From IMG/VR virus record IMGVR_UViG_3300044846_004303, positions 1 to 50,682 of that record: 50,682 bases of DNA; one strand, given 5' to 3'. Positions 2,032 through 50,442 of this stretch are shown here, piece after piece. Source of the stretch: a virus. The position numbers were made by a program, and so were the translations under genes. Numbering within the stretch: position 1 is the first letter of the stretch; the number at the start of each line of letters is the position of its first letter. A model generated the notes under the pieces. It was not told the origin of the DNA, searched no databases, and was given only the letters and a program-made list of their open reading frames with translations.

Positions 2032-2388
2032 ATGGCAAAGAAAATATTAAGATTAACAGAAAAAGACCTAACTAGATTAGTTAAAAAGGTGGTTAACGAG
2101 CAAACTAAATTTTCATTAGATGAACCACATTATATATTTGATAGAAAAAAGGGAATGGTTGCTTTAATCGAACAAACTCCAAAAATGGTTAGAAGAGTAT
2201 TAAAAAACTTACCACCTAATTTAGAATATTTAGCAATCATTGATTGTGAATTTGCCGATTTTGAGGATATTGATATGTGTTCTTTAAATCAATTAAAAAA
2301 TGTGAATTTGGTTGGTACTGAAAGTAATTTTGAGGAACAAGGATATGACTGTTTGAATAAATGGGATGAAAAGGGCCAATGGCGTTAA
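2032..2388 (+). CDS. N-terminally tagged small protein, unknown function
   Basis: 118 aa. The ATG at 2032 is chosen because the upstream extension of the frame runs through the terminator. The N-terminus carries the clearest copy of the window's recurrent tag: RLTEKDLTRLVKKVVNEQ, an amphipathic helix ending in V-x-E-Q. The remainder has LRR-like spacing (LPPNLEYLAIIDCEF, LNQLKNVNLVG), suggesting a short leucine-rich-repeat-like fold. It is a single-gene unit between two terminators with a TATTTATT box. Packaging into the virion and cleavage after the tag's Glu are inferred. Confidence 0.75.
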   Translation: MAKKILRLTEKDLTRLVKKVVNEQTKFSLDEPHYIFDRKKGMVALIEQTPKMVRRVLKNLPPNLEYLAIIDCEFADFEDIDMCSLNQLKNVNLVGTESNFEEQGYDCLNKWDEKGQWR

Positions 2389-2411
2389 CGATTAATTAAT
2401 ATAATTTAAGT

Positions 2412-2436
2412 CCCCACTCACAAGGTGGGGATTTTT
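2412..2436 (+). terminator. intrinsic terminator
   Basis: Stem CCCCAC / GTGGGG with a 7-nt loop and an ATTTTTG tail, between two tagged genes. Confidence 0.85.
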
Positions 2437-2448
2437 GTTTATTGTAGG

Positions 2449-2456
2449 TATTTATG
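2449..2456 (+). promoter_or_regulatory. TATTTATG late-type box, 4 nt from start codon
   Basis: The octamer ends 4 nt before the ATG at 2461. If it is a -10 element, the transcript would start at or next to the ATG. Confidence 0.5.
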
Positions 2457-2460
2457 TATA

Positions 2461-3495
2461 ATGGATATTCGTACAAAAATAAAACAAGCTTTAATAGAAC
2501 AAAAAAAATCAAAAAAGGTTGAGGTTGGGTGTGATTATTTTCCACAACATACAAACGACTATAGATGGTGTAAGTTTGCAGAAAACAAATTATCAAGAAG
2601 CACTAATAAAATTTCACAAGCTCTAAAAGAATATGTGAGAGATTACTTATCAACATACAAAACAGGTGTTAGGGCAGTAAGATATAACAAAGAACTTGAT
2701 TTTTTTTCTGAAAGGAGGGAAATGGTGATAGACGCTTTGGATAAGTTCAAAACCTCTTGTCCAAAACTTAGAAAATATGTTATTGACAAGATGACTAAAT
2801 TTACAGAACAATATGTAATTTGGAACGAAGAACAACAATATGACCTATTAAACAAATTAAATACAAATTATACCGCCGCAGCATACCTGATTACTTCAGA
2901 ATTACCTGAACATTATAAAACAAATGTATCATTTGAAAATGCTTTAGAATATTTTTTCAAACTTAAAAACAAGGAAGGTGTAACACCGTTTGAAGTGTTC
3001 ATGGGAAAAATTGAGATGGAAAATAAAAAAGAAATTAGAGAAAGAATTAATCAAACCATACAGTATACAACAGATTTAGGTAATCAAATTGAAGATATGT
3101 TTGAAAAATACATTTCAAAACAAATTGGTTCTGAAAATGTCGTAATGTATTCAGGAGATTATTCATTTATGGATATGATTGGCATTGATATGTTAGTGAA
3201 AAATCCTGAAGGTATTTGGGTTCCAGTACAAGTTAAAAAATATGTTGGAGGTTGCGATGATACGACTATCAAATATGCGAGAAAACATATGTGCGAAAAT
3301 TGGTGTGTATCTAATGAATCTAAATATTTTAACATTAGAGTTTATGATGGAGAAAGAATGGTCAAGTCAAAAAAACAATGTAAGACAATAGAGTTAGACC
3401 AAACCACATTCTTAAACGTTCACGGGATACCAAATGACAACAAACAAAATGAGTTTTGTTATTCTACCGATGAGGAAATATTTGGGGAAGATTAG
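2461..3495 (+). CDS. tagged PD-(D/E)xK nuclease-like protein
   Basis: 344 aa. The start at ATG 2461 gives an N-terminal tag-like segment MDIRTKIKQALIEQKK (L-I-E-Q). Residues about 220-300 show a pattern typical of restriction-endonuclease-like folds: an acidic residue in SFMDMIGIDMLV, then a strand WVPVQVKKYVG (Q-x-K in place of E-x-K), and Cys residues further on. Catalysis on DNA or RNA is therefore plausible but unproven. The helical N-terminal half (residues 20-200) is not recognised. If the tag is real, this nuclease would be carried in the capsid and injected. Alternative: a non-catalytic homologue. Confidence 0.65.
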   Translation: MDIRTKIKQALIEQKKSKKVEVGCDYFPQHTNDYRWCKFAENKLSRSTNKISQALKEYVRDYLSTYKTGVRAVRYNKELDFFSERREMVIDALDKFKTSCPKLRKYVIDKMTKFTEQYVIWNEEQQYDLLNKLNTNYTAAAYLITSELPEHYKTNVSFENALEYFFKLKNKEGVTPFEVFMGKIEMENKKEIRERINQTIQYTTDLGNQIEDMFEKYISKQIGSENVVMYSGDYSFMDMIGIDMLVKNPEGIWVPVQVKKYVGGCDDTTIKYARKHMCENWCVSNESKYFNIRVYDGERMVKSKKQCKTIELDQTTFLNVHGIPNDNKQNEFCYSTDEEIFGED

Positions 3496-3504
3496 GAAAA
3501 TTCG

Positions 3505-3512
3505 TATCTTTA
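3505..3512 (+). promoter_or_regulatory. host-type -7 box (TATCTTTA), 4 nt from ATG
   Basis: Near-match to the Bacteroidetes TAnnTTTG box. Only CATC separates it from the ATG at 3517, which predicts a leaderless mRNA. Confidence 0.5.
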
Positions 3513-3516
3513 CATC

Positions 3517-3759
3517 ATGGCAATACCTACTAATTCAAAAACACCAATAAAACCTACCAAATGGGAGGTTGTATACGAAGATGATGAATGTATATCCATT
3601 TGGAGATATAATTCAAAAATAACTACTGCAGGACCTGTAGAAGTTGAACAGAAATATAAGAGAGGTTACGTTCATCCGTTAGATAAGAAAAAGAACACTT
3701 TGGGTGAATTGGCGAAACAGGCGAGAAAAGAATCTAAATTAAATAATTCTAAGTCTTGA
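3517..3759 (+). CDS. small conserved-looking hypothetical protein
   Basis: 80 aa, no recognised family. It has a folded-looking core (KWEVVYEDDECISIWRYN) and a basic C-terminal tail (LGELAKQARKESKLNN). It sits alone under its own host-type box and overlaps the convergent minus-strand gene at 3739-4392 by 21 bp at the 3' ends, so the two transcripts would be antisense there. Confidence 0.65.
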   Translation: MAIPTNSKTPIKPTKWEVVYEDDECISIWRYNSKITTAGPVEVEQKYKRGYVHPLDKKKNTLGELAKQARKESKLNNSKS

Positions 3760-4392: not shown

Positions 4393-4395
4393 ATT

Positions 4396-4403: not shown

Positions 4404-4405
4404 CT

Positions 4406-8541: not shown

Positions 8542-9645
8542 TTATGATTTTGGTCTTAAAACTGCTAATGCTTCAGGGTAAGATTTGTCTAAAACCTTCT
8601 CGTCTTTACCTTTATAAGGTATATTTTGTAGAATATATCTAATTGCATTTAAACCTGAAACTCTTTTATCTTCTGCGTCAACAATAACCCATGGGTGATT
8701 AACTGTGGACGTTTTATCGAATAGTTTTTCTTTAAATTCTGTAAATCTATCCCATAAATCTTGCATTTTAGAATCGTTTGGCGAATATTTCCAATATTTT
8801 AATGGAGATTGTTGTCTAATATCAAATCTTCTTTTTTGTGTTCCTTTGTCAATTGAAAACCATAATTTAAAAAGGTAATCTCCTTCTTTAACCAAATCCA
8901 TTTCAAATCCTTCTACATTCTTCATAAAATCTTCATATTCTTCAGGACTACCATACCCCATCACTGGCTCAACTAAACCTCTATTATACCAACTTCTATC
9001 AAATAGATTAATCATTCCTGGTTTAATTTCTTTTTTATATCTGTTCCACCAATCTTTTCTATCTTCAGGAGTTGGGACTCCCAATGCAATAATATTGTAA
9101 TATCTTGGATTAAGGTTTTCGGTAAATTTTTTAATTGTACTTCCTTTACCAGCAGAATCTCTACCTTCAAACACAATAATTACAGTTCTATTTGATTCCT
9201 TCAACCATTCTTGCATTTTTAATAGCTCTACTTGTAATTCAAATATTTCTTTTCTATATACCTTTTTAGGTACAATCGATGGCTCCTCAACTTCAAATCC
9301 GTAGTCATCATCCGAGTCAGGGCCATAACCTGTTTTATCTCTTAATTTTAATGATGAAATAATTTTGTTAAAATACTCTTCAACGTTTTTCTTTTTATCT
9401 CCTTTTTTAAGTAATACTGTTTTAAGGCCTCTTTCTAGTAAATGAAAATCGATAATTTGAGATGTCCCCATGTTTGTGATTTCTACCAACATTTTTTCAA
9501 TATTTTTAGAATATAATCTAAGATATTTTAATACTTCCACAGCTTTTTTCAAATTAACATTCATTTGTTCATTTGAATCTTCCTGTTCTGAAACTATTTT
9601 CATTACCGACAATATTCTATCTAATTCTTCATTAAGGACTGACAT
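8542..9645 (-). CDS. ppk2: polyphosphate kinase 2 (PPK2) with N-terminal virion-tag-like extension
   Basis: 367 aa against about 230-300 for ordinary single-domain PPK2. Residues about 130-360 carry the PPK2 signatures: ELLKMQEWL, Walker A EGRDSAGKG (160-168), the lid NPRYYNIIALGVPTPEDR, Walker B LFDRSWYNRGLVE (214-226), and SPLKYWKYSPND. PPK2 enzymes transfer phosphate between polyphosphate and nucleotides, usually regenerating NTPs/NDPs. Residues 1-125 are extra: LNEELDRILSVMKIVSEQ fits the recurrent tag, followed by a helical, then acidic linker (DSDDDYG). The late-type box at 9663 agrees with expression together with virion genes. All catalytic motifs look intact. Packaging is inferred. 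Confidence 0.93.
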   Translation of the reverse strand: MSVLNEELDRILSVMKIVSEQEDSNEQMNVNLKKAVEVLKYLRLYSKNIEKMLVEITNMGTSQIIDFHLLERGLKTVLLKKGDKKKNVEEYFNKIISSLKLRDKTGYGPDSDDDYGFEVEEPSIVPKKVYRKEIFELQVELLKMQEWLKESNRTVIIVFEGRDSAGKGSTIKKFTENLNPRYYNIIALGVPTPEDRKDWWNRYKKEIKPGMINLFDRSWYNRGLVEPVMGYGSPEEYEDFMKNVEGFEMDLVKEGDYLFKLWFSIDKGTQKRRFDIRQQSPLKYWKYSPNDSKMQDLWDRFTEFKEKLFDKTSTVNHPWVIVDAEDKRVSGLNAIRYILQNIPYKGKDEKVLDKSYPEALAVLRPKS

Positions 9646-10206: not shown

Positions 10207-12318
10207 ATGAAAAAACTTTTAACAATAGGACTTTTACTATTGTCCTTAACATCATTTAGTCAAATTAAATTTAAGTTCCCTGACACAAGAGTTCTTACCG
10301 ATATTAACGGTGGAGTTATTAATAGAGGAGACCAATTTGATGTTATAGTCCATGCCAATGGTAATGGTGACGCAGTTACAAGACAGTTAATGTTTGATTT
10401 CCAATATGACCAAACAAACTTTGAGGTAGTTTCAGTTAATCACACTGGTACAGGAGGTAACGGAGGGGTTTTCCCACAAGGTTCAAACATACAGTTATCA
10501 TGGCAAAATTATCCTGGATATGGTTATGCTGGAAATACAACGAATACTAACGGTACTGTAAGATATACATCAGGTTTATCGTACACATATAATTTAACAA
10601 GTTCTAATGCACTTCTAAGGGCTACTTTAACTTGGGCAACAGCTTTGGCAATGCCTTTTACTTCTTACTCTCAAATGTTAGTTGTAAGACTTAGATTAAA
10701 AGCGGCATCCACCGCAAATTCATTTAATCCTGTTAAATTAAACTTTGTTGCAGGATGGAATGGACAAGGTGTTGGAGTTCCAACATTTATGGATACACCA
10801 TTATCAACTGAAGTTATTATAGACCAAAACACAGGTAAACTTGTAACTGCTAAAGTTGATGTTAGTTCTAATTTACTTGCACTATCAGATGTTAAAGTTT
10901 CTTTTAGAGATACGATTAGTAATGTAAGTCAATCATTTAACGTACTATCTAATGGTAATGTTGATATTACTCAATCATTATTATCTGAAAACAAAGTTTA
11001 TGAAGTGACTGTAATGCACAACACGGACAAAACAAATGCAATTTATAACGGAGCAATTACAATATCAGATTTTACAACCGCACAAGGGGAATTTACATCA
11101 ATGGGATTAGATGGTAGTAACGGTCAGATATTAAAAACAGGTCAATCTTTATACACAGCAGATATTAATAGAAATAAAATTATTGATGGAGGAGACCTAC
11201 CAAGATTATTAGGTCAAGTGGTTGGATTAGATACACTTGTAACTGTTCCTTCAGGATACGTTATTGGTAGTAATCAGTACACAAGTTTACCAACTTGGAG
11301 GTCAACAGATGCAACTACAATTGGTGGACAAGTTGAATGGTGTGTTGTTAATATAAACTCTTATAGTCAAAATATTTCAAAAATTAGTATTGATTTAAGA
11401 GAGTTTAACGGAACTAATATTTTACCTGAAAACATTAAAAGTTTACAATTATTTGACTTATATACAGGCCCTATTGAGTTTGATAGTAAAGATGGTACAT
11501 GGGCTTATTATAAAATACCTTCAGCGATTTCAAATATATCATTAACAACATTTGCTCCTTATGTTAGAAATATGGGTAATAATGAGTATGGGGTTAAAGC
11601 TGAGTTTGAATTTAATAACTCTCCAAGTAATTCATGGGGCTCAATAACAACAACAAACTGGAAAGATATTACATACCCTAAAACATATCTTAAAACAGAT
11701 GTATTAGGAACAAATAAAATTGTTGATTTAAAATACCTTTTATGGGGTGATGTAAATCGTTCACATTCTTCACAAGTTGTAACTAGTTCAAATGGTACAA
11801 GTACGGTTCAAACAAATGCTGTGAATAGTTTAATGACTAATATGGCGTTTAGAACTATGGCGATACAATCAACATCGTTTATTAATACACCAAATGAAAT
11901 TTTATCAATCGATGTTAATCTATCTAATGTAACAGTAACGTCAAATAATGTTGAAATACCCGTAACACTTAATACAAATGGAAATAGTGTTGGTGGATTA
12001 CAATTTGAATTTAATTACGACAACTCTAAAATCAAATTTGAAGAATTAAAATCAGAGGTTCCAAACTCTTGGTACATCTTTGTCAATTCAAAAGAAGGTA
12101 AAGTTAAATTCGGAGCGATTGACCAAAATAATAAAATCTCAATTAAGGGAAATTTAACACCATTCAAATTAAGATTTTCAACAATAGGAAGTGGTGTTGA
12201 TATTTTAACATCTGTTAAAGTTTCTCCAACAATGGATGCAAGTAGTTCCAATGGAACTCAATTAGGTATTAACTTGAATACTACACAAATAAAATTAACA
12301 GGATATAAAAATTTTTAA
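10207..12318 (+). CDS. secreted cohesin/dockerin-like protein
   Basis: 703 aa. Signal peptide MKKLLTIGLLLLSLTSFSQ with a typical flavobacterial cleavage site. Residues about 30-190 form a cohesin-like beta domain (QLMFDFQYDQTNFEVVSV). A second, clearer cohesin-like domain is near 565-695 (VEIPVTLNTNGNSVGGLQFEF, FKLRFSTIG). In the middle (about 315-340) DINRNKIIDGGDLPRLLGQ looks like a dockerin-type Ca loop, with a degenerate second one (GDVNRSHSS, about 515). No catalytic domain is seen. Cohesin/dockerin pairs mediate protein assembly on cell surfaces, so a self-assembling exported or surface scaffold is possible. Unusual for a phage. Confidence 0.75.
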   Translation: MKKLLTIGLLLLSLTSFSQIKFKFPDTRVLTDINGGVINRGDQFDVIVHANGNGDAVTRQLMFDFQYDQTNFEVVSVNHTGTGGNGGVFPQGSNIQLSWQNYPGYGYAGNTTNTNGTVRYTSGLSYTYNLTSSNALLRATLTWATALAMPFTSYSQMLVVRLRLKAASTANSFNPVKLNFVAGWNGQGVGVPTFMDTPLSTEVIIDQNTGKLVTAKVDVSSNLLALSDVKVSFRDTISNVSQSFNVLSNGNVDITQSLLSENKVYEVTVMHNTDKTNAIYNGAITISDFTTAQGEFTSMGLDGSNGQILKTGQSLYTADINRNKIIDGGDLPRLLGQVVGLDTLVTVPSGYVIGSNQYTSLPTWRSTDATTIGGQVEWCVVNINSYSQNISKISIDLREFNGTNILPENIKSLQLFDLYTGPIEFDSKDGTWAYYKIPSAISNISLTTFAPYVRNMGNNEYGVKAEFEFNNSPSNSWGSITTTNWKDITYPKTYLKTDVLGTNKIVDLKYLLWGDVNRSHSSQVVTSSNGTSTVQTNAVNSLMTNMAFRTMAIQSTSFINTPNEILSIDVNLSNVTVTSNNVEIPVTLNTNGNSVGGLQFEFNYDNSKIKFEELKSEVPNSWYIFVNSKEGKVKFGAIDQNNKISIKGNLTPFKLRFSTIGSGVDILTSVKVSPTMDASSSNGTQLGINLNTTQIKLTGYKNF

Positions 12319-16644: not shown

Positions 16645-17187
16645 ATGGGTTTACGTGAATTAATTAAAGAAACATTAGAACAACAATTAAATAAATCTTT
16701 AATGTTAAAAGAAGATGTTGAAATTTCAGAGGTATTACAATATCATATTGATAATGAAATGACGTTAACTAAAAATGCGTTTAGTGTTTATTCTGAAAGG
16801 TATTTTGATTTGGTTAATGAAGTTAGAGAATTGTTTAATAAAGGTAAAATTGAACTTAATCAGGAGGATACTTTAATGGTTGAATCTGATTTAGGAATTA
16901 AAGTAAAAATTGGTAAAGAATACGTTTATTTAGACGCTCCTTATATCTCTGAAACTGAAGAGGATATTTTAACAGAATCCAAAATTCCAAGAGGGTCTAA
17001 GAAATTTACAGTTTATACTAAGAGTAAAAATGGAGGAGTTAAAAAAGTGACTTTTGGTAACTCTAACTTAATAATTAAAGAGAGTCGCAAATGTTTTCAA
17101 AAAACAGATAGAACAACCGCAGGATATTGGTCTTGTAATCTTGGTAGATATTCTAAACAACTTGGACTTTCTTCATCAAATTATTAG
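16645..17187 (+). CDS. tagged protein, unknown function
   Basis: 180 aa. N-terminus MGLRELIKETLEQQLNKS fits the recurrent tag (helix then T-L-E-Q), with a second possible boundary at LMLKE. The rest is mixed alpha/beta; the C-terminal part has basic KKFTVYTKSKNGGVKKVTFG and KCFQKTDRTTAGYWSCNLGRY with two Cys. That tail resembles small structural proteins of phage heads, but I do not recognise a family. First gene of a three-gene unit. Confidence 0.65.
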   Translation: MGLRELIKETLEQQLNKSLMLKEDVEISEVLQYHIDNEMTLTKNAFSVYSERYFDLVNEVRELFNKGKIELNQEDTLMVESDLGIKVKIGKEYVYLDAPYISETEEDILTESKIPRGSKKFTVYTKSKNGGVKKVTFGNSNLIIKESRKCFQKTDRTTAGYWSCNLGRYSKQLGLSSSNY

Positions 17188-17929: not shown

Positions 17930-18928
17930 TTAAGCTCTCATTGTTGGAACAATATCTTCCTCCGTCATAGCCATATCATTAATTAATTCGCGTATTGTAC
18001 CTATTTCTCTTTGATAATTATGGACGGGTAATTCTGGTTGTTCCATTGATACCTCCGTTGGTTGTTCTGACATTTCATTAGAAAATTCAACTCTCATTTT
18101 TTCATGAACACTTATACATTCTGTATAAACTTGTTGTTGAATTTCATCTGAACATAAATTTTTGTTTGTAAATTCGGACCTAAATATTTTTTTAACAATA
18201 GGATATAGATAATCATCAGCATCAACATCAAGGTAATCAACTCTACTATCTTCAGCATTCCAAAAACTAAATTCTGAATCACCATCTAATCCTTTGTAAC
18301 CCGCAAACTTATATCCTGTTTCTTTATTGATAAAATATACCAAAATACCTCGTCTCCAATATTTTTCAAAATAGTTTTTTTCTTTTTGATATGTTGTACA
18401 CCATCTTGTTGATGAACCATATTTTGCCGATGCTGAAAATGTTAAAGGTCTAACAACAACCCACTTTTCGTCTTCATATTCTTTGATAACCTGACCCTCA
18501 AGTTCTTTTGTAAGTTCTTTCATGGTAGCTAATGTTACAGCACCTCTAATATCATCAATATCTTTATAACTTGTAACGTCATTTTTTTCAATCATATTTT
18601 TATCCATATATTCCATGAATAAGTTTAAGGTATGATATGTTTCAGTAGTGAAATTTTCAGTAATATAGTTTGACAAATAAAACATTTGATTATCTGTAAG
18701 TCCATCAGTTGAAATTCCTTTATTAATCAAATTTGATTGCATTTCTAATGCGCTTATGGATAATTCATCTTTATGCCACATTTCTTTTACATTAAATCTT
18801 TTTCCAAAAATTTTACACATTAAAGGAAGATATTTGTGAGTTTTAGTGGTGTCTAATCTAACCATTAAATCGAACATCGTAATATTCAATTCTGGATATT
18901 GTTTTTTTAATTCATTTATACGAGACAT
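17930..18928 (-). CDS. hypothetical protein with xTxWCT motif
   Basis: 332 aa. Helical N-terminal half. The conserved-looking centre is about residues 155-220: WVVVRPLTFSASAKYGSSTRWCTTYQ, then YWRRGILVYFINKETGYKF and FSFWNAEDSRVD. I have seen this small-G/S-T-x-WCT pattern followed by a YF(I)x strand in phage proteins of unknown function. The C-terminus is polar with repeated EQP. Alone on the minus strand, divergent from nothing and downstream of the tRNA unit's terminator. Function unknown. Confidence 0.7.
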   Translation of the reverse strand: MSRINELKKQYPELNITMFDLMVRLDTTKTHKYLPLMCKIFGKRFNVKEMWHKDELSISALEMQSNLINKGISTDGLTDNQMFYLSNYITENFTTETYHTLNLFMEYMDKNMIEKNDVTSYKDIDDIRGAVTLATMKELTKELEGQVIKEYEDEKWVVVRPLTFSASAKYGSSTRWCTTYQKEKNYFEKYWRRGILVYFINKETGYKFAGYKGLDGDSEFSFWNAEDSRVDYLDVDADDYLYPIVKKIFRSEFTNKNLCSDEIQQQVYTECISVHEKMRVEFSNEMSEQPTEVSMEQPELPVHNYQREIGTIRELINDMAMTEEDIVPTMRA

Positions 18929-21061: not shown

Positions 21062-21807
21062 TGAGTCAAAAATTTATAGATAAAGAGTTAAAAATATTTC
21101 GTAAAGTATTGATGGACCATTCATTTAATAAGGATGGGTATGAATATCATTTTTTGTCTATTGAACTAGATGAAAAAGGATGGGCTTATAATATTGTGGT
21201 AAATGTTGTTTTACCTGTTAAGGGTCAATCATACGCAACTCCTGTATTTAGTGGACATATTCACGACATTCTAAGTAATATTTGGAAATACGTAGGGAGC
21301 CAATTTTCATATTCAGAAAAAATATTGGTTGATGGTAAAGAACCTGTTGGTAGCGGCCTTTTTATCAGTGAAGAAAAACAAAGAGAGGTTTTAGTTACAA
21401 TGAGAAAGGAAATGAAAGAAGTAACTATATGGACAGCCATTGGTAACTTGACCTTTGATGTGTATTGGAAACCTAATGAAAATTTTTACTCGTTAGAGGA
21501 TGTATATATTGATTTTGATTTTAACATTGAAATTAAAGAGTTTATGTTAGATAGTCATTATGTCGTACCTAATTTAGATATTGCAGATGATGTTGCTGGA
21601 GCTATTTTGAATGTGATGTATGATTCTGAGGGACTCAGAGATGATATTAATAACGTAATCTATGATGCGATGAGTAATGAAATTGACATTACCAATGTCG
21701 ATGATTTATATTTTCAAGGACGATTCTATATTACTAAAATTGATGGATTTGAAGTCGATAAAAAGTGGGGTAATCATTACGATTTAGAGCCCGATATGTT
21801 TACTTAA
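21061..21807 (+). CDS. hypothetical acidic protein
   Basis: 248 aa, start fixed by TAATG. Alternating strands and acidic loops (VYIDFDFNIEIKEFM, NEIDITNVDDLYF). No recognised family. It may have a fold related to the N-terminal domain of the previous protein, since both show a GDKKDYVTLTLYI- or GWAYNIVVNVVL-like strand pair, but this is weak. Overlaps the convergent gene by 8 bp. Confidence 0.65.
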   Translation: MSQKFIDKELKIFRKVLMDHSFNKDGYEYHFLSIELDEKGWAYNIVVNVVLPVKGQSYATPVFSGHIHDILSNIWKYVGSQFSYSEKILVDGKEPVGSGLFISEEKQREVLVTMRKEMKEVTIWTAIGNLTFDVYWKPNENFYSLEDVYIDFDFNIEIKEFMLDSHYVVPNLDIADDVAGAILNVMYDSEGLRDDINNVIYDAMSNEIDITNVDDLYFQGRFYITKIDGFEVDKKWGNHYDLEPDMFT

Positions 21808-22420
21808 TTTTTTCGATGATTTTTTTGATTACTTGAGATAAAACTTGAGCTGTTATTAGGGCACCTCCCGACGCAATCAATCTTTCGGCAATTAATATGG
21901 CACTTTCTTTAGGATTTGATGTTCTATATGCGATATCTTGAATATCCATAATAATTGGTATTAAAAATGAATATGCTACCGTATCCATAAAAGTACTTAC
22001 AGTAATTTTTAATGATGAAAGGAATCCTTTAAATGCTGATTTTAAATCCTTAGCTTTTTCTAATACTAAACGAAATGTATCCTCAAGACCCTCTTCTTTA
22101 ATTTTCTTTAAAATTTTAACTAATCCTCTTTTGTTTTCATAAAATGTTATAAATGCAATACCAGCTAAAACCAAATATCTTTGGTCATCAGTTAGTTCAA
22201 AATTACCGTCTCTAATAAATTTATCTAACGGCATTACTAAACCACCAACGGCTGTACCCCAAGTCATTAACATTTTCACGTTAAGGCCATAAACTTTACT
22301 AACTCTATTTGCAAGATTTTTAGTGAATGAATACATGGTTTTCATGTAGTCAGTCATTTTTGATTCATCTTGTTCCTGTAAAATTATTCTCAATTGAGAT
22401 TCGTTAATTAAAAAATCCAT
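21800..22420 (-). CDS. tagged multi-TM protein
   Basis: 206 aa from ATG 22420, chosen because the TATTTATT box ends 5 nt upstream and the tag FLINESQLRIILQEQDESK then lies at the very N-terminus. Hydrophobic segments at about 50-65 (LMTWGTAVGGLVMP), 80-95 (YLVLAGIAFITFY) and 150-165 (AYSFLIPIIMDI), plus a C-terminal amphipathic helix. A membrane-active protein that is also tagged could be a virion-internal protein forming a DNA-ejection pore. Inference only. Confidence 0.65.
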   Translation of the reverse strand: MDFLINESQLRIILQEQDESKMTDYMKTMYSFTKNLANRVSKVYGLNVKMLMTWGTAVGGLVMPLDKFIRDGNFELTDDQRYLVLAGIAFITFYENKRGLVKILKKIKEEGLEDTFRLVLEKAKDLKSAFKGFLSSLKITVSTFMDTVAYSFLIPIIMDIQDIAYRTSNPKESAILIAERLIASGGALITAQVLSQVIKKIIEKIK

Positions 22421-25508: not shown

Positions 25509-25530
25509 TGTCTATATTATATGTATTAGG

Positions 25531-28395: not shown

Positions 28396-28452
28396 GTAAG
28401 AATCATTTCATTTATTAATATACTGTCCATAAAGCCTTTTTTTATTTATATA

Positions 28453-31400: not shown

Positions 31401-32169
31401 CAACCGCGTAGTACCAATTTCCAGGAGTTATTGTCGTAACTACCGCTAAATCATTTGCCCACCAATAATTAGTTAATCCATTTGAGGTTAATCTAAATGC
31501 ATTAACCTCGTTTGTGGTACCATAATTACCCCACCCAACAAGACCTTTGTCTCCAAGGGTGTCAGCATTAAACCAAACTCCAATAGTGTAATTAGAATTT
31601 CCTACAGGAATTCCTGTTGTAGCGCTAAATGAAACATATTGGTTAGCACCATTTAGTACTAAACTACCTCGTAATGCCGAATTGTAAGTAATACCATTAT
31701 TTAATAGACCCGTGTTACCATTTCCTGTTAAATCATACCATGTGTTAAATACTAAAGGATATGATGGTGGAAAATTTGAATCTAAATTTAAAACACAACC
31801 ACTTGTAACTATTGAGGGATATTCTTGATTTGTAATAAAATAACCTTCATAAATTGCCCAATTTATTGCATCTGATAATGTTCCAAAAGGACCTGCGAAT
31901 TTTGATGAGGCTAATTTATTAATCCCATCAATTAAATCGGAATCGGTCAAACCAGAAGTTTGAAATCCCATCGCTCTTGCGGTTAATTGATTGGTTTTAC
32001 CATTTGTGTAACTATCAGTAACAATTAAGTATTGATTACATATTCCGTAATCTGGACACCAAAGTAAAGAACCTAAATTAACAGTGTTATTAACGTCCAT
32101 TACAATTGTTCCAAATTGCAATGCGTTTGAGATGGTACTTCCAGAATTATAAGCGACAAGATTCGGCAT
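28453..32169 (-). CDS. giant Thr-Pro-rich fibre/adhesin with LamG and DUF1566-like domains
   Basis: 1238 aa, the largest gene here. The N-terminal 110 residues may be the virion anchor. Residues about 121-328 are LamG/concanavalin-like (LVLNGANQYVSF, YTIGVWFNADTLG, WYYAVATFDG, SIYVNGSLIG). Residues about 630-780 resemble DUF1566/Fib_succ-type lectin-like modules: GGYSDWYLPSKDELAQLY, TWLTSSE, VRGVRSF. At least five TP stalks separate these from further small domains (e.g. TDPCDIAPSCLYNCANCIG). A TATTTATT box lies 14 nt upstream of the start. Probably the proximal long fibre or adhesin. Confidence 0.82.
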   Translation of the reverse strand: MPNLVAYNSGSTISNALQFGTIVMDVNNTVNLGSLLWCPDYGICNQYLIVTDSYTNGKTNQLTARAMGFQTSGLTDSDLIDGINKLASSKFAGPFGTLSDAINWAIYEGYFITNQEYPSIVTSGCVLNLDSNFPPSYPLVFNTWYDLTGNGNTGLLNNGITYNSALRGSLVLNGANQYVSFSATTGIPVGNSNYTIGVWFNADTLGDKGLVGWGNYGTTNEVNAFRLTSNGLTNYWWANDLAVVTTITPGNWYYAVATFDGTTRSIYVNGSLIGSDTPTGHNVTTSSNLTIGLTNTTEYFDGNMGEVQIFDRALSSTEITQNYNALLPRYNGTYTDPCDIAPSCLYNCANCIGTGWIPYNATSCYQVVTSAATAPVSSIPLIRRGAVEYSQFGTQFYDEGFSIGGTGTILQTSLTAPLWYNSPNNTVNGPMNRCAIWYSAYTITNTWLGFSTCLSGISTTNTYYVGIAADNEFKLVLDGVTILNTTLGSMGAVNKFKYWHVYPVTIPSGNHTLELYGLDYGVIAGFGMEIYDNTLSELTGATTLNDLNVIFSSSGYTTADIVQTIGGEYLSSGYTCPSGFVYSTCSGNCIDYEYCYSTSPTPTTTTTPTPTPTINICELSIGTSFQGGVVAYILQPGDSGYVPGYTGGLIATTGDVSTNAIWGCEGLSIPGATGTTIGTGDANTIAIMTDCATAGIAARLCGDLTEGGYSDWYLPSKDELAQLYINRALIGGFIGGANLTWLTSSENNANTVFGLDYPTGVIFNGYSKSYSANVRGVRSFSVPSNYCFTPTPTPTPSVTPVISGTCACYSFTNTTETTGEVYYTSCLGNSPTTSSVNAGLTITFCAVYGQPVTATSGTIGGLCAGFVQTCNDDGECSSCGSNTPTPTQTSTPTPTLVPSLGCSGGTISGTYSGNNQYTYPSQPVSSSVDSYINFSWGSLDRPNRFTVYDSTGLLWTSGWVGFADYAGPWGASLNTPSTGNSNICFLSSSGRYVLVEAGNASPTTPISDAYDYVMTCLGSCPGGATPTPTPTLTPTCDCVQFVNVEVTSSGVITYLDCNGVGQSQNVGIGPEVIGVATCINKNTLGGSASFTIDSIGPCCNVVTPTPTTTPTPSPTPAGIQATIEFSFYDSGSGVVSASMEVTGGVTLDSLSWGGIGIGYSSLGCSGTENTQSFSDVLGIGDTQVTTEVWGSISAILSAQNQTSSFTVNGNTINTVSQIITVGGHNYVITGVTDCFSPL

Positions 32170-37851: not shown

Positions 37852-38952
37852 ATGAGAGGTTATTTTGGATTAGGTCAATTATCTGCAACTGAAAAGTCAG
37901 ATATCTTAGACCAACATAAAAGTGTATACAACGGTTACCAAACAATGCAACCGCAAGTATCAAATACTCAACCATTAACTGTATATGATTTCGCTGGAGA
38001 CAAAGAAGGATTGGTAGTTAATAATAAAGGTGAAGTTAAAAAATATACAAACATGGGGATTAATGAACAAACTTCTAAAAAATCTATGTGTGAATGTGGA
38101 GGAGACATGTACGAAGGTGAGTGTATGGAGTGTGGATATAAAGATGGTATGTCAGAAGAAGATGATTCTGATTGGGACGCAACTTTAATGGATGGATTAG
38201 AAGAAGAAACAGGACATTTAGATGACATTTATAAAGTTAGAGACCTTAACTTAAAACATGGTGATTTTGACTATGTTGAAGGTGGTGGTAATGATGTAGA
38301 TACATTTGAAGGAATGCACAAAAATTTATACAAAGAAGACGAATCAGACGATTACGTAAACTACGATGACAATTTTGAAGACCCTGATAATGAAGATGAT
38401 GGATTTGAAGATTTGAATAGTGCAGAAATGGATGAACAAGGTGGAAATTCTGATGATATGGACGTTGATAATGTTGAACCAGCATACGATTTTGAATCAA
38501 ATGGACCAGATTCTGTTTACCCTGTAAAAGAATATGAAACAATGGAATCCGCATTTTCTGACGAAATTGATGAAGTAGATATTTCAGGTTCTCAAGGCAT
38601 TTATAGTGATATGGACCCAGCATTTGATTTTGATAGTGAAGGACCAGGTAAAGCAGGACCTTATCAAGAGTTTTCATATGAAGGTGAAACTGACGAACAA
38701 TATTTACCACCACATGCGTGGAAAAAGATGAAAAGACAACAAGACGCTAAAGATAAGGGAGAGGATTTTGACGATGATGAATTTGACCCATCAGATTATG
38801 AAGGTTTAGATGCGATGAGTTCATGGGAAGATATTAAATCTCATTTTGGTGATACTGATTGGAGTGAAATTGATGAAGACTTACAAGAGTCGTTTCAAAC
38901 TCAGAAAAACAAAATTATGGAAATGTTTAACAGATTTAACAAATACAATTAA
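37852..38952 (+). CDS. very acidic protein with tag-like N-terminus and zinc-ribbon motif
   Basis: 366 aa. N-terminal LSATEKSDILDQHKSVYNG resembles the ISESEVKEILSMHKSLKEQ tag of the protein at 41215. A zinc-ribbon-like block CECGGDMYEGECMECGY lies at about 80-96. The rest is very Asp/Glu-rich with two related repeats (EPAYDFESNGPDSVYP and DPAFDFDSEGPGKAGPY). Possible extra cleavage sites are MGINEQ and EMDEQ. Such acidic proteins act as prohead core or internal head proteins in large phages; this is inference. Ends at a strong terminator. Confidence 0.7.
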   Translation: MRGYFGLGQLSATEKSDILDQHKSVYNGYQTMQPQVSNTQPLTVYDFAGDKEGLVVNNKGEVKKYTNMGINEQTSKKSMCECGGDMYEGECMECGYKDGMSEEDDSDWDATLMDGLEEETGHLDDIYKVRDLNLKHGDFDYVEGGGNDVDTFEGMHKNLYKEDESDDYVNYDDNFEDPDNEDDGFEDLNSAEMDEQGGNSDDMDVDNVEPAYDFESNGPDSVYPVKEYETMESAFSDEIDEVDISGSQGIYSDMDPAFDFDSEGPGKAGPYQEFSYEGETDEQYLPPHAWKKMKRQQDAKDKGEDFDDDEFDPSDYEGLDAMSSWEDIKSHFGDTDWSEIDEDLQESFQTQKNKIMEMFNRFNKYN

Positions 38953-39967: not shown

Positions 39968-40213
39968 ATGATATTAGACGTAGATTTCCTTATTGATTTT
40001 TTTAAGAAGCACACTAACGAAGACAGTAAAGGAGAAATGGGAGAACAAGACGCTCCTGCAGCTTCATCACCATCAACAGGTGGTGGAGGAGGTTCAGTTC
40101 CAAAGTGGGCTGACACATATACATTAACAAGAGGTAAAGCAAATAAATTGGGACTTGCGGGTGAAAAATGGGAAACTGGACTTACTCGTGGAGCAGCAAA
40201 CAAAATTTGGTAA
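39968..40213 (+). CDS. small protein with Gly-rich linker and repeated LTRGxANK motif
   Basis: 81 aa. N-terminal hydrophobic/acidic helix (ILDVDFLIDFFKKHTNED) followed by GEMGEQ, possibly another E-Q cleavage site. Then come an Ala/Ser/Pro/Gly linker and a basic C-terminus with LTRGKANKLG and LTRGAANKIW, two related motifs. Likely a small virion component with a binding tail; unrecognised. Confidence 0.65.
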   Translation: MILDVDFLIDFFKKHTNEDSKGEMGEQDAPAASSPSTGGGGGSVPKWADTYTLTRGKANKLGLAGEKWETGLTRGAANKIW

Positions 40214-40245: not shown

Positions 40246-41208
40246 ATGGTACAACCAAAATATAGCCCTGAAGAGGCTTTAGAAAAAATGAAGTTAATGA
40301 TGAAATATGATTCATCAAAAACTTTGAATGAAAACAGACAAATAATTTTAGAACAAGTTTCATTAAATACTGCGGGTTCAACCGCATTAGGTGCTGGACT
40401 TGGGGCGGCAGCCGCTGCAGGAACAACTTTAGGAGCTTCAATTGCGACTGGAGCTGCTATGGGTACGGCAATACCTATTCCAATTGTTGGAACGGCAATA
40501 GGAGCTTTAGCTGGTTTAGGTATTGGTTTGTTAGGTACTTGGGCATTTAATAAAGATGGTAATGCTGAAGGATTTAAAAGGTTAATGGAAGTATGTAAAG
40601 CACCAGGTGCTAACAAACTTGTTAAAAAAATGTCTAATGGTGATATTCGTAGTATCGCTTATGCTATTCAGGATTCTAAAGGAACTTGGAATGATGATGA
40701 AGATACAATTGCTGCAGAATTAGCAAAAATTGAATCAATCGCTGACCTTTGTTCTGTTGATAAGAAAGTTCCAGGAGGTTTATTTGAATTTTTAGATAAT
40801 TTAACTGATGACCCTGATGAGTGGAAAATATTTACAAGACCTATTGAAGGTATGATAGAGGATAGTGAGGTTTTAGTATCACCTGAAGAACAAGAAAAGG
40901 CCAAGACTGACGACGGTAAAAAGAAAACTGGTGGAGGTGGTGGTGGATATAAACCATGTTCAGGAACTTATCAAAAAGGATGTAAGTCTGATGTAATTGC
41001 TAAAGTACAAGGATGTTTAGGATTAGTTACTGACGGTAAATTTGGACCAAAAACTTTAGCTGCTTTAAGTGGTAAAGGATTCACAACATTTACAGATACT
41101 GACGTAACTAAAATATGTACAACAACAACAACAACAACAACAACACCTAAAGACGAATTCGATACACAAGTTGATGCGGACAGTGTTGACGATGTTTTAA
41201 ACAATTAA
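40246..41208 (+). CDS. tagged glycine-zipper protein with peptidoglycan-binding-like C-terminus
   Basis: 320 aa. Tag-like N-terminus ends LNENRQIILEQ (about residues 27-37). Residues about 42-105 are a long Gly/Ala-rich hydrophobic stretch (ALGAGLGAAAAAGTTLGAS; VGTAIGALAGLGIGLLG), a glycine-zipper membrane segment. The C-terminal part (about 235-285) resembles PG_binding_1: DVIAKVQGCLGLVTDGKFGPKTLAAL, flanked by Cys, then a poly-Thr tail. A virion-internal protein that inserts in the membrane and touches peptidoglycan during DNA entry is a reasonable guess. Confidence 0.7.
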   Translation: MVQPKYSPEEALEKMKLMMKYDSSKTLNENRQIILEQVSLNTAGSTALGAGLGAAAAAGTTLGASIATGAAMGTAIPIPIVGTAIGALAGLGIGLLGTWAFNKDGNAEGFKRLMEVCKAPGANKLVKKMSNGDIRSIAYAIQDSKGTWNDDEDTIAAELAKIESIADLCSVDKKVPGGLFEFLDNLTDDPDEWKIFTRPIEGMIEDSEVLVSPEEQEKAKTDDGKKKTGGGGGGYKPCSGTYQKGCKSDVIAKVQGCLGLVTDGKFGPKTLAALSGKGFTTFTDTDVTKICTTTTTTTTTPKDEFDTQVDADSVDDVLNN

Positions 41209-41214: not shown

Positions 41215-42213
41215 ATGAAAAATAATTTAATAAGCGAATCAGAAGTTAAAGAAATCTTGTCAATGCACAAGTCATTAAAAGAACAAGATGAGAAAAAAAT
41301 ATCCTTAGATGTTACAAGTGATTTAGTAAAATTACGTAAAGCAATTACTGCAGGATGTCTTAAAAATGGTAAAATTTTAACAAACGCAAATCAATCAAAA
41401 TATGTTTACAGAGCAACTTCTAAAACTGGTAAAACAGTAGACTTCACGGCTGACATGAATTACAAATTCAAAGACGGCTCCAAGTCAGGTAAATGGAAGT
41501 GTGATGAAATTGCTCAAATGGCGGCATCAGCTGCACAGACAGCTGCACAGGTGGCTCAACAACAAGCGGCAAACGCAGCTGACACTTCTTTGGTACAACA
41601 AGAAGGTGGATGGCAAGAAGCTAAAGACATTAAAACTACTCGTGAAAATTTAGAGAATCCATTAATGTTTGAAAAGAAAGTTGTTAATGGTGTAACATTA
41701 TATAGAAGTGTTCCTGGTAGTGGAATTACAGGAGGATTAACTCCTGACCAAACCAAAACAATTGAAAAATGGAAAGCACAAGGTGCTAAATTAAGAAAAG
41801 AATTAGACCCTGAAGAAGCAAAGACATGGAGCTCAAGAGTTGTTAGTCCTGCAAGTGAAGGATATTTCTCTCAAGATTTAGTAATGTACTTCCCACCTGA
41901 AAATGTTGTGGGAGCAAATGGTTCTAGTATTGAAGCACAATTTAATAGTTCCGTTTCAAGTCAAACTCCATCAAGTAAAAGAGATTGTAGAGATACTATT
42001 GAGGCGTATTACAAAGCTTATGTTACTAAGAAAAGAATTCAACCTAACTCATTCGAACCAATGAAAGAAAAAGTTCAGGCATGTGCAAATGAATTCAATG
42101 GTAAGTGGGGTGGAGTTTTAAGTAAGATTGACAATTACGTTGACATTCTTAGAGGTGTTAAAGAAGGTGGCCCAACGTCATATGGTAGCGATTCTAAATG
42201 GAGAATACAGTAA
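41215..42213 (+). CDS. tagged protein, unknown function
   Basis: 332 aa. Strong tag copy at the N-terminus: NLISESEVKEILSMHKSLKEQ, cleavage predicted after K-E. Later an Ala/Gln-rich helix (AASAAQTAAQVAQQQAANAA, about 98-117) and a basic, mixed C-terminal region (RDCRDTIEAYYKAYVTKKR). No family recognised. Six nt after the previous gene; same unit as the next tagged protein. Confidence 0.7.
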   Translation: MKNNLISESEVKEILSMHKSLKEQDEKKISLDVTSDLVKLRKAITAGCLKNGKILTNANQSKYVYRATSKTGKTVDFTADMNYKFKDGSKSGKWKCDEIAQMAASAAQTAAQVAQQQAANAADTSLVQQEGGWQEAKDIKTTRENLENPLMFEKKVVNGVTLYRSVPGSGITGGLTPDQTKTIEKWKAQGAKLRKELDPEEAKTWSSRVVSPASEGYFSQDLVMYFPPENVVGANGSSIEAQFNSSVSSQTPSSKRDCRDTIEAYYKAYVTKKRIQPNSFEPMKEKVQACANEFNGKWGGVLSKIDNYVDILRGVKEGGPTSYGSDSKWRIQ

Positions 42214-42223: not shown

Positions 42224-42943
42224 ATGTTAAAAAAAGAAATAAAAAAGTCTATTTTAGAGACCAAAGAAAGAAAAGAGAAACTTTTAATTGAACAAAAATT
42301 AGTTGAAAGTAGAATCATGATGATTATTGAATCGAAAGATAATATCAAAAAATTCAAAACATTATCTGAGGAAAAGCAACAAAAAATGGCTTACGCTCTT
42401 TTTGAAGAATTTGGATATCTTGAAGAACAAGGTTTAATGAATGAACAAGTATGGGATTTTTTAGGTAAAATATTTGGAAATTCATTAGGAGGTATTGCTC
42501 AAACAATTGTTGAACCTTTAGTTAATTCTCTTTTAGGTTCAATAGGACTTGGTGGATATTTTAAAGATTTCTTAGTTTCATTTATAACTTCAAATCCGTT
42601 AAGACTTGCAAAAGCACTTAAAAGTTGTGAAGAGTTAACTAAATTAATTGCGGAATCGTTAACTGAGGCTGTTGCCATGATGATTCAAAGAGAAAAGGGA
42701 TTATCAGGTCAAGGTTATACCTTTATTAGAAATGCCTTAGGTGGAGCGGTTAAAGATTATAAATTTATTGAAAGTTTAGAAAAACAACTTAGTTCTACTG
42801 TTTGTAGTCTTTTTGGACAAATTAACGATAAAGCTTCAGATGTTTATGGTAAGTTAAAAACTGATATTTCTAGTGGAGGTGGTCTCGGTGGTTTATTAGA
42901 TGCTGGTAAAAAAGCATTAACACCATCAGTAGCGACTACTTAA
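42224..42943 (+). CDS. tagged protein with membrane-active-looking segments
   Basis: 239 aa from ATG 42224; the longer frame from 42128 overlaps the previous gene. N-terminal helix KKSILETKERKEKLLIEQ ends in L-I-E-Q; a second candidate boundary is GYLEEQGLMNEQ (about residues 64-75). Amphipathic/hydrophobic segments follow (NSLGGIAQTIVEPLVNSLLG, IGLGGYFKDFLVSFI). The C-terminus is Gly-rich. Likely a virion-internal protein like its two upstream neighbours. Confidence 0.7.
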   Translation: MLKKEIKKSILETKERKEKLLIEQKLVESRIMMIIESKDNIKKFKTLSEEKQQKMAYALFEEFGYLEEQGLMNEQVWDFLGKIFGNSLGGIAQTIVEPLVNSLLGSIGLGGYFKDFLVSFITSNPLRLAKALKSCEELTKLIAESLTEAVAMMIQREKGLSGQGYTFIRNALGGAVKDYKFIESLEKQLSSTVCSLFGQINDKASDVYGKLKTDISSGGGLGGLLDAGKKALTPSVATT

Positions 42944-47914: not shown

Positions 47915-48148
47915 ATGAGTATGTTTATTGGATATTACCTTGTATGTGTAATATATTGTTTTTATCAATTATTTAAAAACCTTAACAAAAGGTATAGTGA
48001 TGACCCAACAGGTGGGTCTCCTGAATTGGATACTATTATGGTGATGGTAATGGCTTGGGTGTTGGCACCAATTGATGTATCCTTAACTTGGATTAGATGG
48101 TATAAAGATGCTGAAACAGCTAGAAGAAGACAAGAGAAATTTTTATAA
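47915..48148 (+). CDS. small two-TM protein
   Basis: 77 aa from ATG 47915. The ATG at 47921 is an alternative because a TATTTATG octamer (47910-47917) ends 3 nt before it, the spacing seen at other genes. Two TM helices (MFIGYYLVCVIYCFYQLF; IMVMVMAWVLAPIDVSLTWI), then a basic tail. Stop overlaps the next start (TAATG). Unrecognised. Confidence 0.65.
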   Translation: MSMFIGYYLVCVIYCFYQLFKNLNKRYSDDPTGGSPELDTIMVMVMAWVLAPIDVSLTWIRWYKDAETARRRQEKFL

Positions 48149-48501: not shown

Positions 48502-48509
48502 TATTTATA
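48502..48509 (+). promoter_or_regulatory. TATTTATA late-type box, 3 nt from ATG
   Basis: TATTTATA-AGT-ATG at 48513. Confidence 0.55.
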
Positions 48510-48512
48510 AGT

Positions 48513-49232
48513 ATGAAAGGAATTTTAACACCAGAAGAAAAACAATATTTAAGAAGAATATCCAATTACTTAGGTTCAATGGGAATGCAAGACGGCAACA
48601 TTGAAATTGATATGGATAATCAAGAGGAATTTGAATATGACAATGTTGATTGGGATTACATAACTCATTTTACCAATAACTACAATGCAGATATCCCATC
48701 AGGATTAATTCCAATACTTCAAAAAATTATGAAGTATTGCGATGATAATAATTTAATTAGAGAACCTGATAATGATGATACGAATTATCAAAGACTTGAA
48801 TACGACATTGACGTAGATTCTAAAAAAATTAGTTTTACTCGTTGGTGGTCTTTTTATACTAGAGGAGAGGGTAGTTCAGTTACTTGGGAGGATGAACAAG
48901 GAAAATCATTATTTGAACATTGGGAAGAAAGCGGAGTTTTAGAAGACCTTACAATTCCTGACGATGGGATTTTAATAGTAACATATAATGGTTCTGGTGA
49001 TTCAGGATATCTTGAAAGTAGTTTTAATGAAACAGGTGATGGAGTTCCAGCGGCAATTGAAGATTGGTGTTACAGAGAACTTAGTGATAACTATAGTGGT
49101 TGGGAAATTAATGAAGGTTCTGATGGACAATTTATATTCAACTTTCATGATATGACAATTGAATTGGTTCATACAGAAAATATAGAAGATAACGCAAGCG
49201 ATACTTATTACGAGGAAAGTTTTAATGATTAA
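48513..49232 (+). CDS. acidic hypothetical protein
   Basis: 239 aa, strongly acidic. Short N-terminal helix (LTPEEKQYLRRISNYLGSM), then beta-rich sequence with tandem-looking YDIDVDSKKISFTRWWSFY and DGILIVTYNGSGDSGYLESSF. Single-gene unit between a late-type box and a terminator. No family recognised. Confidence 0.7.
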   Translation: MKGILTPEEKQYLRRISNYLGSMGMQDGNIEIDMDNQEEFEYDNVDWDYITHFTNNYNADIPSGLIPILQKIMKYCDDNNLIREPDNDDTNYQRLEYDIDVDSKKISFTRWWSFYTRGEGSSVTWEDEQGKSLFEHWEESGVLEDLTIPDDGILIVTYNGSGDSGYLESSFNETGDGVPAAIEDWCYRELSDNYSGWEINEGSDGQFIFNFHDMTIELVHTENIEDNASDTYYEESFND

Positions 49233-49252
49233 TAAATAATTATTATAATTAA

Positions 49253-49283
49253 AACCCCGACTAAAAAAGTTCGGGGTTTTTTT
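49253..49283 (+). terminator. intrinsic terminator
   Basis: AACCCCGA / TCGGGGTT stem with a long T tail, before the tRNA-Leu promoter. Confidence 0.9.
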
Positions 49284-49306
49284 ATGACTTTATTAAAGAT
49301 ATTCAC

Positions 49307-49314
49307 TATCTTTG
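49307..49314 (+). promoter_or_regulatory. host-type TATCTTTG promoter of a tRNA unit
   Basis: Exact TAnnTTTG 9 nt before tRNA-Leu(UAA), between the 49253 terminator and the tRNA. Confidence 0.65.
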
Positions 49315-49323
49315 TTAAACAAT

Positions 49324-49408
49324 ACCGAGGTGGTGTAATGGTAGCCACGAGGGACTTAAAATCCCTTGGTCAGTAACGGCCGTGAGGGTTCGAGTCCCTC
49401 CCTTGGTA
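49324..49408 (+). tRNA. tRNA-Leu(UAA)
   Basis: 85 nt, class II. Acceptor ACCGAGG / CCTTGGT, anticodon arm GGGA-CTTAAAA-TCCC (TAA), long variable arm, discriminator A. Confidence 0.93.
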
Positions 49409-49616
49409 CAATGAGTTAGAAGTACTCATCAAGTTTGGTAACGTTCTTTAAAGATGTTATGGTTGTTTCCTACCACGGCCTTAAGAGGGGGTCTCGGAGA
49501 ATGGTCGTAACAACATCACCGAGTATGTTTGACGTTTTAAGCGGTAAGACGCGTTGGGTTTTTCAAGAAGAAAAACTGTGAATATCTACTCACTGGGATT
49601 TCAGGTGGGGAAATTT
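49409..49616 (+). other. 208-nt structured spacer between tRNAs
   Basis: No ORF of note. It contains several hairpins: ATGAGT/ACTCAT at 49411, GATGTTATGG pairing loosely with a later GTAACAACATC, and GTTTTTC/GAAAAAC near 49557. No intact tRNA can be folded. Could hold a small RNA or processing signals. Confidence 0.4.
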
Positions 49617-49690
49617 GGTTCCATAGCTCAACTGGACAGAGCACAATCCTTCTAAGATTGGGGTTTCAGGTTCGAGTCCTGATGGAATCA
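49617..49690 (+). tRNA. tRNA-Arg(UCU)
   Basis: 74 nt. Acceptor GGTTCCA / TGGAATC, anticodon arm CAATC-CTTCTAA-GATTG (TCT), discriminator A. Confidence 0.93.
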
Positions 49691-49789
49691 CAATGTCATA
49701 TCTTCAGGTACCCTCACAGCGGTGAGATGGGCTAAGTTAGATACAATTTCTCGGTGCTGGAAGTAGAATGCCTGTCTGATGTGATATAT

Positions 49790-49870
49790 ACCCCGATGGT
49801 GGAATGGTAGACACGTATGTTTTAGGAACATATGACTTAAGTCATGTCGGTTCGAGTCCGACTTGGGGTA
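49790..49870 (+). tRNA. tRNA-Leu(UAG)
   Basis: 81 nt, class II. Acceptor ACCCCGA / TTGGGGT, anticodon arm TATGT-TTTAGGA-ACATA (TAG), discriminator A. Confidence 0.93.
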
Positions 49871-49900
49871 CAATATTTATAAAAAAAGATATAATAGATT

Positions 49901-49929
49901 TTGTAAACCAAAATATTTTTGTATCTTTG
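49901..49929 (+). promoter_or_regulatory. host-type promoter of a small RNA
   Basis: TTG (49901-49903), 18 nt, TATCTTTG (49922-49929): close to the Bacteroidetes TTG-N19-TAnnTTTG consensus. Confidence 0.7.
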
Positions 49930-49933
49930 TATT

Positions 49934-50022
49934 GTGATTGAGGAGCACGATTTAGATACACAAGCTCGATTACAAACTGGGTAACACGGGAACGATTTAG
50001 ATACTAGTGTTACCCTTTTTTA
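49934..50022 (+). ncRNA. small RNA with two hairpins presenting the same 13-nt loop sequence
   Basis: Bounded by the promoter at 49901-49929 and its own terminator. Hairpin 1: GAGC/GCTC (49943-49946 / 49964-49967). Hairpin 2: GGGTAACAC/GTGTTACCC (49979-49987 / 50007-50015) followed by TTTTTT. Both loops contain ACGATTTAGATAC (49947-49959 and 49992-50004). Such repetition is typical of decoy RNAs for a protein or of antisense seed loops. A 16-codon ORF from GTG 49934, exactly 4 nt after the -7 box, also fits, so a leader peptide plus attenuator-like hairpin is an alternative. Confidence 0.65.
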
Positions 50023-50442
50023 TTAGATGTCAGAATAAATAACCAATTGATTTTTACCAACTCTAAAAGGGTTAAACCTTGATTCTCTGAATACGGTTTT
50101 GATGATTAGTTGCCAATAAGTTCCTCCTATATGAACAGGAGTTATCGCCATTGCCAATTCCCACTTTAAAGATTTTACAACAAAATCTTCTTCAGGCACA
50201 ATTTCTCTTGTTACTATTTTTTCGGATATTTGTTTTGTCACCGTACTGATAATCTCTCTGATTTCCTCATTTACAATCGGCCTTATGTTATATCCTTCAA
50301 TATCATCTCTAGTATCTCTATCGAACGCATGACTGGTTCTATTCACATCAAATACAAATAAAACTTCTAAAGATGCGTTAACTTGAGTTATTCTTTTCTC
50401 AACTAATAAATTTTCCTTAATAATTTGTCTCAATGTTTTCAT
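50023..50442 (-). CDS. tagged protein, unknown function
   Basis: 139 aa. Tag-like N-terminus KTLRQIIKENLLVEKR (L-V-E), here with Lys rather than Gln after Glu. The remainder is alpha/beta (ASLEVLFVFDVNRTSHAFDR; ELAMAITPVHIGGTYWQLII). A TATTTATG box ends 5 nt before the ATG (50448-50455). Unrecognised. Confidence 0.7.
   Translation of the reverse strand: MKTLRQIIKENLLVEKRITQVNASLEVLFVFDVNRTSHAFDRDTRDDIEGYNIRPIVNEEIREIISTVTKQISEKIVTREIVPEEDFVVKSLKWELAMAITPVHIGGTYWQLIIKTVFRESRFNPFRVGKNQLVIYSDI

Follow-up and report, generated by a model that had tools for sequence, protein, structure and literature searches.

Short N-terminal tags on unrelated proteins as probable capsid-targeting propeptides in uncultivated T4-related phages

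Introduction

The 50,682 bases of IMG/VR virus record IMGVR_UViG_3300044846_004303 (hereafter the window; it is the complete record, itself a fragment) carry about ten genes, named here by their lower coordinate, whose otherwise unrelated products open with similar short sequences. Why should one kind of N-terminus recur on unrelated proteins? The original prediction held these to be amphipathic tags ending in hydrophobic-x-Glu-Gln which, together with a prohead protease, load many proteins into the phage head. All ten N-terminal sequences that it listed are present at the genes named.

In phage T4, targeting propeptides of 10–19 residues are cleaved by gp21 after L/I-x-E. Such a capsid targeting sequence (CTS) is present on several proteins, among them the enzyme Alt, and the CTS has been discussed as perhaps a general uptake route in T4-like phages (PMC9026906). 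From the sequences analyzed here we infer, with a probability of roughly 0.8, that the N-termini of the window are likewise capsid-targeting propeptides of a T4-type head, including their cleavage, the encapsidation of the tagged proteins and their ejection.

Recurrence of the N-terminal motif

Relatives of the window were assembled in two sets: five contigs of 55–130 kb sharing gene 41215 (55–82% identity) and seven contigs with a capsid protein in common with the first set. Genes of the window and the 12 relatives (13 contigs) were called by one rule and their bodies grouped into 394 de-duplicated families. The motif [ILVMF]-x-E-Q occurred 36 times N-terminally (motif end at residues 9–36) versus 55 times in the much longer bodies, a 4.5-fold enrichment (p=1.4e-10); the window alone held nine motifs near the N-terminus and 11 elsewhere (5.3-fold, p=5e-4). 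Among control pairs in the same families, EN, ED, EK, DQ, KQ, NQ and QQ showed no N-terminal enrichment and ES, EG and EE a weak one. A position-specific scoring matrix whose training set was confined to families that the window lacks ranked the starts of 2032 and 8542 first and second among 13,604 window positions; 42224, 39968, 41215 and 40246 were also within the top 12.

Two tag classes were defined, type A (M-KKIIKLTESDL-RIVKKV-xEQ) and type B (DxEExxRILxxHESATKxxYLxEQ), which together occur on 15 protein families in the 13 contigs. Hidden Markov models (HMMs) of both were seeded from relatives only and recovered 2032 and 41215 of the window, respectively (Table 1). Nearly all strong matches of the type-A HMM begin at residues 1–4. 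The 98-kb relative G013 alone encodes approximately ten type-A proteins, and eight contigs of 99–321 kb carry between three and 13 each. The HMM search, which the original prediction had proposed, thus found many more tagged proteins.

The shorter motif [LI]xE was enriched N-terminally 1.6–2.0-fold (p from 3e-4 to 3e-11) in the window, in the contigs G013, G025 and G028 and in Flavobacterium phage immuto. In crAss001, FCL-2 and phi38:1, phages without an S77 protease, it reached only 1.0–1.2-fold, that is, no enrichment, and the type-A tag was absent from all six comparison phages. With these negative controls, the sequence checks support loading by a tag and a prohead protease. A tblastn search of cultured phages with the bare 23-residue consensus tag gave no match.

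The tag as a portable unit

An unanchored DNA pattern comprising the tag helix alone, with the start codon and Glu-Gln both outside the pattern, was used to scan 2.9 million viral contigs and yielded at least 120 matches; the following counts apply to the matches listed. An ATG lies at most 12 residues upstream of the helix in 118 of 120, and one further match apparently starts with GTG. The 112 bodies behind the helix with sufficient length for comparison fell into 39 clusters without detectable mutual similarity. Glu was outside the pattern, yet it stands at residue 17 in 38 of the 39 body clusters and one position off in the 39th; every cluster has I, L, V or M at residue 15, and in 19 a Gln comes after the Glu. 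Column entropy, 0.17 bits at the Glu, climbs to 2.35 one residue later and to at least 3.4 thereafter. Conservation therefore ends at [hydrophobic]-x-Glu, the pattern expected of a protease site.

Could such starts arise by chance from charged, AT-rich N-termini, or from wrongly chosen start codons? The gene calls were home-made, Glu and hydrophobic residues are frequent, and about half of the window tags are not amphipathic. Against this stand the enrichment (p=1e-10) with its mostly flat controls and the near absence of the exact pattern from prokaryotes, where the same DNA pattern matched once in 85,000 genomes (257 Gb) versus at least 120 times in viral contigs. On the enrichment test and the unanchored search, with its ATG positions and 39 bodies, we rejected this explanation, whose probability we regard as negligible. 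The single prokaryotic match, at first suspected to be a bacterial copy of the tag, is instead a tag (MKKIIKLTESDLYRIVKKVISEQ) that has an ATG of its own and opens a short reading frame of about 53 codons in a contig of a Bacteroidota metagenome-assembled genome (L397, approximately 2169–2330); it is possibly a phage remnant and a hint of the host.

The position of the tag also varies. In four cases (L102, L230, G014:107547-108299 and G013:92930-93673) a type-A tag is internal to a longer frame, between two domains, resembling a polyprotein of two cargos. In L166, L176, L211 and L253 type-A helices are C-terminal and end right before the Glu (...RIVKRVIDGK*, ...KKVLSSK*); the L176 protein has an additional tag-like N-terminus (MLKESIIKKVLKEM). 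The window itself encodes a protein with a YGxxTxWC motif (17930-18928), a domain that elsewhere bears a type-A tag at its N-terminus (L238) or C-terminus (L176).

Protease, capsid and head module of the relatives

A Peptidase_S77 is encoded in the relatives G001 and G003. The relatives' enzyme is homologous to T4 gp21 (structure 5jbl, E=5e-14) and keeps the His and Ser motifs. It was detected in eight of 15 tag-bearing contigs and in all five of those longer than 160 kb; the contigs without it may be fragments. In G003 the protease gene lies between those of the portal (gp20) and the capsid protein (gp23), and an acidic scaffold-like gene precedes the capsid gene. The order terL-portal-protease-scaffold-capsid in the relatives is that of T4.

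The capsid protein itself begins ...SYLINE|ASSTS, with L-I-N-E-A invariant in 73 of 73 capsids of relatives, and is probably cut at LINE|A; the counterpart in T4 gp23, ...FLTE|AEIGG, is alike in character. The relatives hence have both things that the original prediction had proposed to look for, a gp21-like protease and a capsid that shares its cleavage rule. Tagged genes adjoin this module: a type-B tagged gene lies directly downstream of the capsid gene in G001 and G003, and in G009 four consecutive tagged genes, three of them type B, follow it. Immuto, too, has the protease, and tags of a C type lie beside its head genes; KNV73_gp094, gp095 and gp080 are among its tagged proteins.

Polyphosphate kinase 2 and other predicted cargo

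Gene 8542 of the window (8542-9645) encodes a polyphosphate kinase 2 (PPK2; Pfam PPK2, E=3e-70) with intact kinase motifs and approximately 100 N-terminal residues that are missing from solved PPK2s. The enzyme occurs in at least 80 viral contigs. Its tag, MxxLNExxRIxxVMGxxxE, is kept in 47 distinct sequences, with the Glu of the site in 40 of 42, and is followed by a variable linker with insertions and deletions. The PPK2 homologs of two megaphages (642 and 735 kb) start instead with MINNFIKFINEE and MISNYDNFMNES, which resemble the internal-protein tag in the T4 record. One enzyme with different, lineage-specific tags argues for selection placing the enzyme where the tag leads.

Of the 74 genes called in a 50-kb stretch of the 735-kb megaphage (L393, LR756501.1 130001-180000), at least 14, that of PPK2 included, have such a T4-like start (e.g. 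MIKTFDEFINES, MDKYNNFINEA and MIRKFKIFES) versus one of 199 internal Met windows, a descriptive count since the regular expression was devised once these sequences had been viewed. S77 matches in the megaphages themselves fell below the cut-off and are weak.

Tagged bodies in the relatives include LysM and PG_binding_1 domains; most tagged proteins have no Pfam match. Several tagged bodies with LysM, PG_binding_1 or similar-looking domains (L184, L232, L189 and L237) hint at a role at the cell wall during entry.

Proposed mechanism and alternatives

Read from sequence, what needs explaining is that unrelated bodies have a tag in common, that its end is fixed at [hydrophobic]-x-E, that a protease and a capsid share this rule, and that PPK2 has had its tag replaced. 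In the mechanism that we propose, the short helix would dock its protein onto the scaffold core while the prohead assembles. The gp21-like S77 protease would then cleave behind the Glu of [L/I/V]-x-E, mostly before Gln, and release the cargo within the head, from which it would probably leave together with the DNA.

Tagged proteins might instead be parts of the scaffold or core that the protease destroys, as it does T4 gp67 and gp68, and not delivered cargo. L-x-E sites do occur in the relatives' acidic scaffold-like and small core-like proteins as well, and several tagged bodies are small and without assigned function. A single N-terminal site in front of a long body is, however, the pattern of internal proteins and unlike degradation at multiple sites; the bodies include PPK2 with intact motifs, LysM and peptidoglycan-binding domains; and a genome with as many as 13 type-A tags has many for a core. 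This explanation is therefore improbable.

Several observations weigh against targeting to the head. The window contains no head gene, so that protease and capsid are known from relatives linked to it by orthologs of 55–82% identity. Flavobacterium phage FCL-2, without an S77 protease in its annotation, has a small excess of [hyd]xEQ (four versus two, p=0.006). Type-A and type-B tags are unlike the CTS of T4 in sequence, and several exceed 10–19 residues (9–37 among the tags described here, approximately 22 in type A and 31–33 in type B). Lastly, four of the 120 helix copies among the matches listed are C-terminal and lack the Glu.

Such C-terminal copies are what a docking signal for another phage structure (tail, replication site or membrane) might produce, the Glu merely marking the end of the helix, and some tagged genes do lie near tail genes or distant from the head module. 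Yet the [ILVM]-x-E boundary is the pattern of the same phages' capsid propeptide and of T4 gp21 sites, and a helix cap would not account for a near-invariant Glu followed by free residues on 39 unrelated proteins among the matches listed. We consider docking elsewhere more doubtful still than a scaffold or core role.

As to the capsid-targeting propeptides, likeness to the T4 internal-protein tag is regarded as a trait of the lineage and not as part of the mechanism. Save for that resemblance and a strict tag length, every defining feature of the T4 CTS system that can be tested on sequence is present.

Tags of the window

The tags and candidates are collected in Table 1, including one gene (39968) beyond the earlier list. 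The claim of ten very similar tags holds in part: the site is conserved in orthologs of 2461, 8542, 21800 and 41215 and partly of 40246, while 37852 and 42224 are weak. The hydrophobic-x-Glu-Gln ending is missing from 37852; since 16645 and 50023 keep I-K-E and not E-Q, these two fit the L/I-x-E rule and not the x-Glu-Gln rule. 'Amphipathic' describes about four of nine tags, the hydrophobic moment being clearly high only in 2032, 50023, 8542 and 16645.

Table 1 Tags and tag candidates of the window
Feature	Position	Strand	Basis
Tag, type A (MAKKILRLTEKDLTRLVKKVVNEQ), 118-aa protein	2032..2103	+	Relatives' HMM E=1.9e-10; class found on 39 unrelated bodies among matches listed
Tag (MDIRTKIKQALIEQ), 344-aa protein	2461..2502	+	L-x-E invariant in 7 homologs; indels directly after Glu
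Tag (MSVLNEELDRILSVMKIVSEQ) on PPK2 (8542-9645)	9583..9645	-	Site conserved in orthologs
Tag (MGLRELIKETLE), L/I-x-E type	16645..16680	+	LIKE kept by orthologs, variable beyond; Gln not conserved
Tag (MDFLINESQLRIILQEQ), predicted membrane protein (21800-22420)	22370..22420	-	Start and site conserved in orthologs
Weak candidate, like first half of type B, without x-Glu-Gln	37852..37923	+	N-terminus conserved in orthologs
Candidate beyond earlier list (MILDVDFLIDFFKKHTNEDSKGEMGEQ), 81-aa protein	39968..40048	+	EQ conserved in every ortholog found
Tag, IILEQ end at residue 37	40246..40356	+	I-x-E-Q in 4/6 orthologs
Tag, type B (MKNNLISESEVKEILSMHKSLKEQ), 332-aa protein	41215..41286	+	Type-B HMM E=0.03; site kept in orthologs
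Weak candidate tag (MLKKEIKKSILETKERKEKLLIEQ), 239-aa protein	42224..42295	+	Conserved, yet conservation extends beyond Glu-Gln
Tag (MKTLRQIIKE), 139-aa protein (50023-50442)	50413..50442	-	I-K-E kept in single ortholog

Gene 2461 has a weak similarity to the SinI endonuclease (Pfam RE_SinI, E=2e-4, just under the cut-off). The start of gene 21800 is probably the inner ATG at 22420, as in its orthologs, and related N-termini of the ITESQL type occur in other contigs. The 40246 protein combines a Gly/Ala-rich hydrophobic stretch with a C-terminal segment resembling peptidoglycan-binding domains; its PHROG matches are weak. The tag of 50023 shares its class with MKKSQLRQIIKEAL of immuto. The structure model of 41215 has a helix at residues 8–24 followed by a low-confidence linker (overall pLDDT 62); in this model, as in that of 2461 (pLDDT 42), the tag is helical, and neither was good enough for fold searches.

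Among other genes of the window, four (96-1655 and 23085-32169) encode very large proteins, probably fibers or adhesins, whose linkers are Thr-Pro repeats. A secreted protein (10207-12318) has cohesin/dockerin-like segments; immuto encodes an annotated cohesin-domain protein.

Comparison with known systems

Like IPI, IPII, IPIII and Alt of T4, the proteins described here are otherwise unrelated and carry a short N-terminal sequence, here a probable propeptide, following the L/I-x-E rule, with a cut that is predicted in our case; protease (S77), capsid and gene order are homologous to T4's in the relatives. Unlike T4, there are several tag classes of other sequence, and up to 13 proteins of one class per genome versus T4's handful; the presumed cargo takes in PPK2 and cell-wall-binding domains, and Gln mostly stands next after the predicted cut. 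The megaphage tags do resemble the ipII/ipIII tag of T4, whereas the tag types of the window do not.

In phiKZ and SPN3US a distant relative of gp21 trims many head proteins at their N-termini, cutting after Glu (PMC10052503). The propeptides of SPN3US are mostly of 111–254 residues, just two being short (20 and 24), and a shared portable tag is not described in the passages of that source that were consulted. The first 30 residues of DarB of phage P1 are enough for the packaging of a foreign protein (PMC9024508). That signal is described for a single protein, and P1 has no separate scaffold of the T4 kind; the tags here are on many proteins. In the open-access literature we found no paper joining 'capsid targeting' with phage and metagenomics. 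The clade, the tag classes and the breadth of cargo appear new; the concept of the mechanism is already known from T4, so that the novelty is narrower than originally claimed.

Implications

Somewhat more tentatively than the propeptide function itself, we favor a broader picture. An uncultivated T4-related clade, which probably infects Bacteroidota, and separately some megaphages would load dozens of unrelated proteins by lineage-specific, exchangeable tags and deliver them at infection, the cargo including active PPK2 and peptidoglycan-binding proteins. If this is true, the internal-protein mechanism of T4 would be a general modular loading system. A sequence rule would then predict virion cargo, with probable first-minute effectors and counter-defense proteins, in phages that have never been grown, and natural tags would be at hand for packaging proteins in phage heads. 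With PPK2 as cargo of the virion, a metabolic enzyme would arrive ready-made and would not have to be expressed post-infection.

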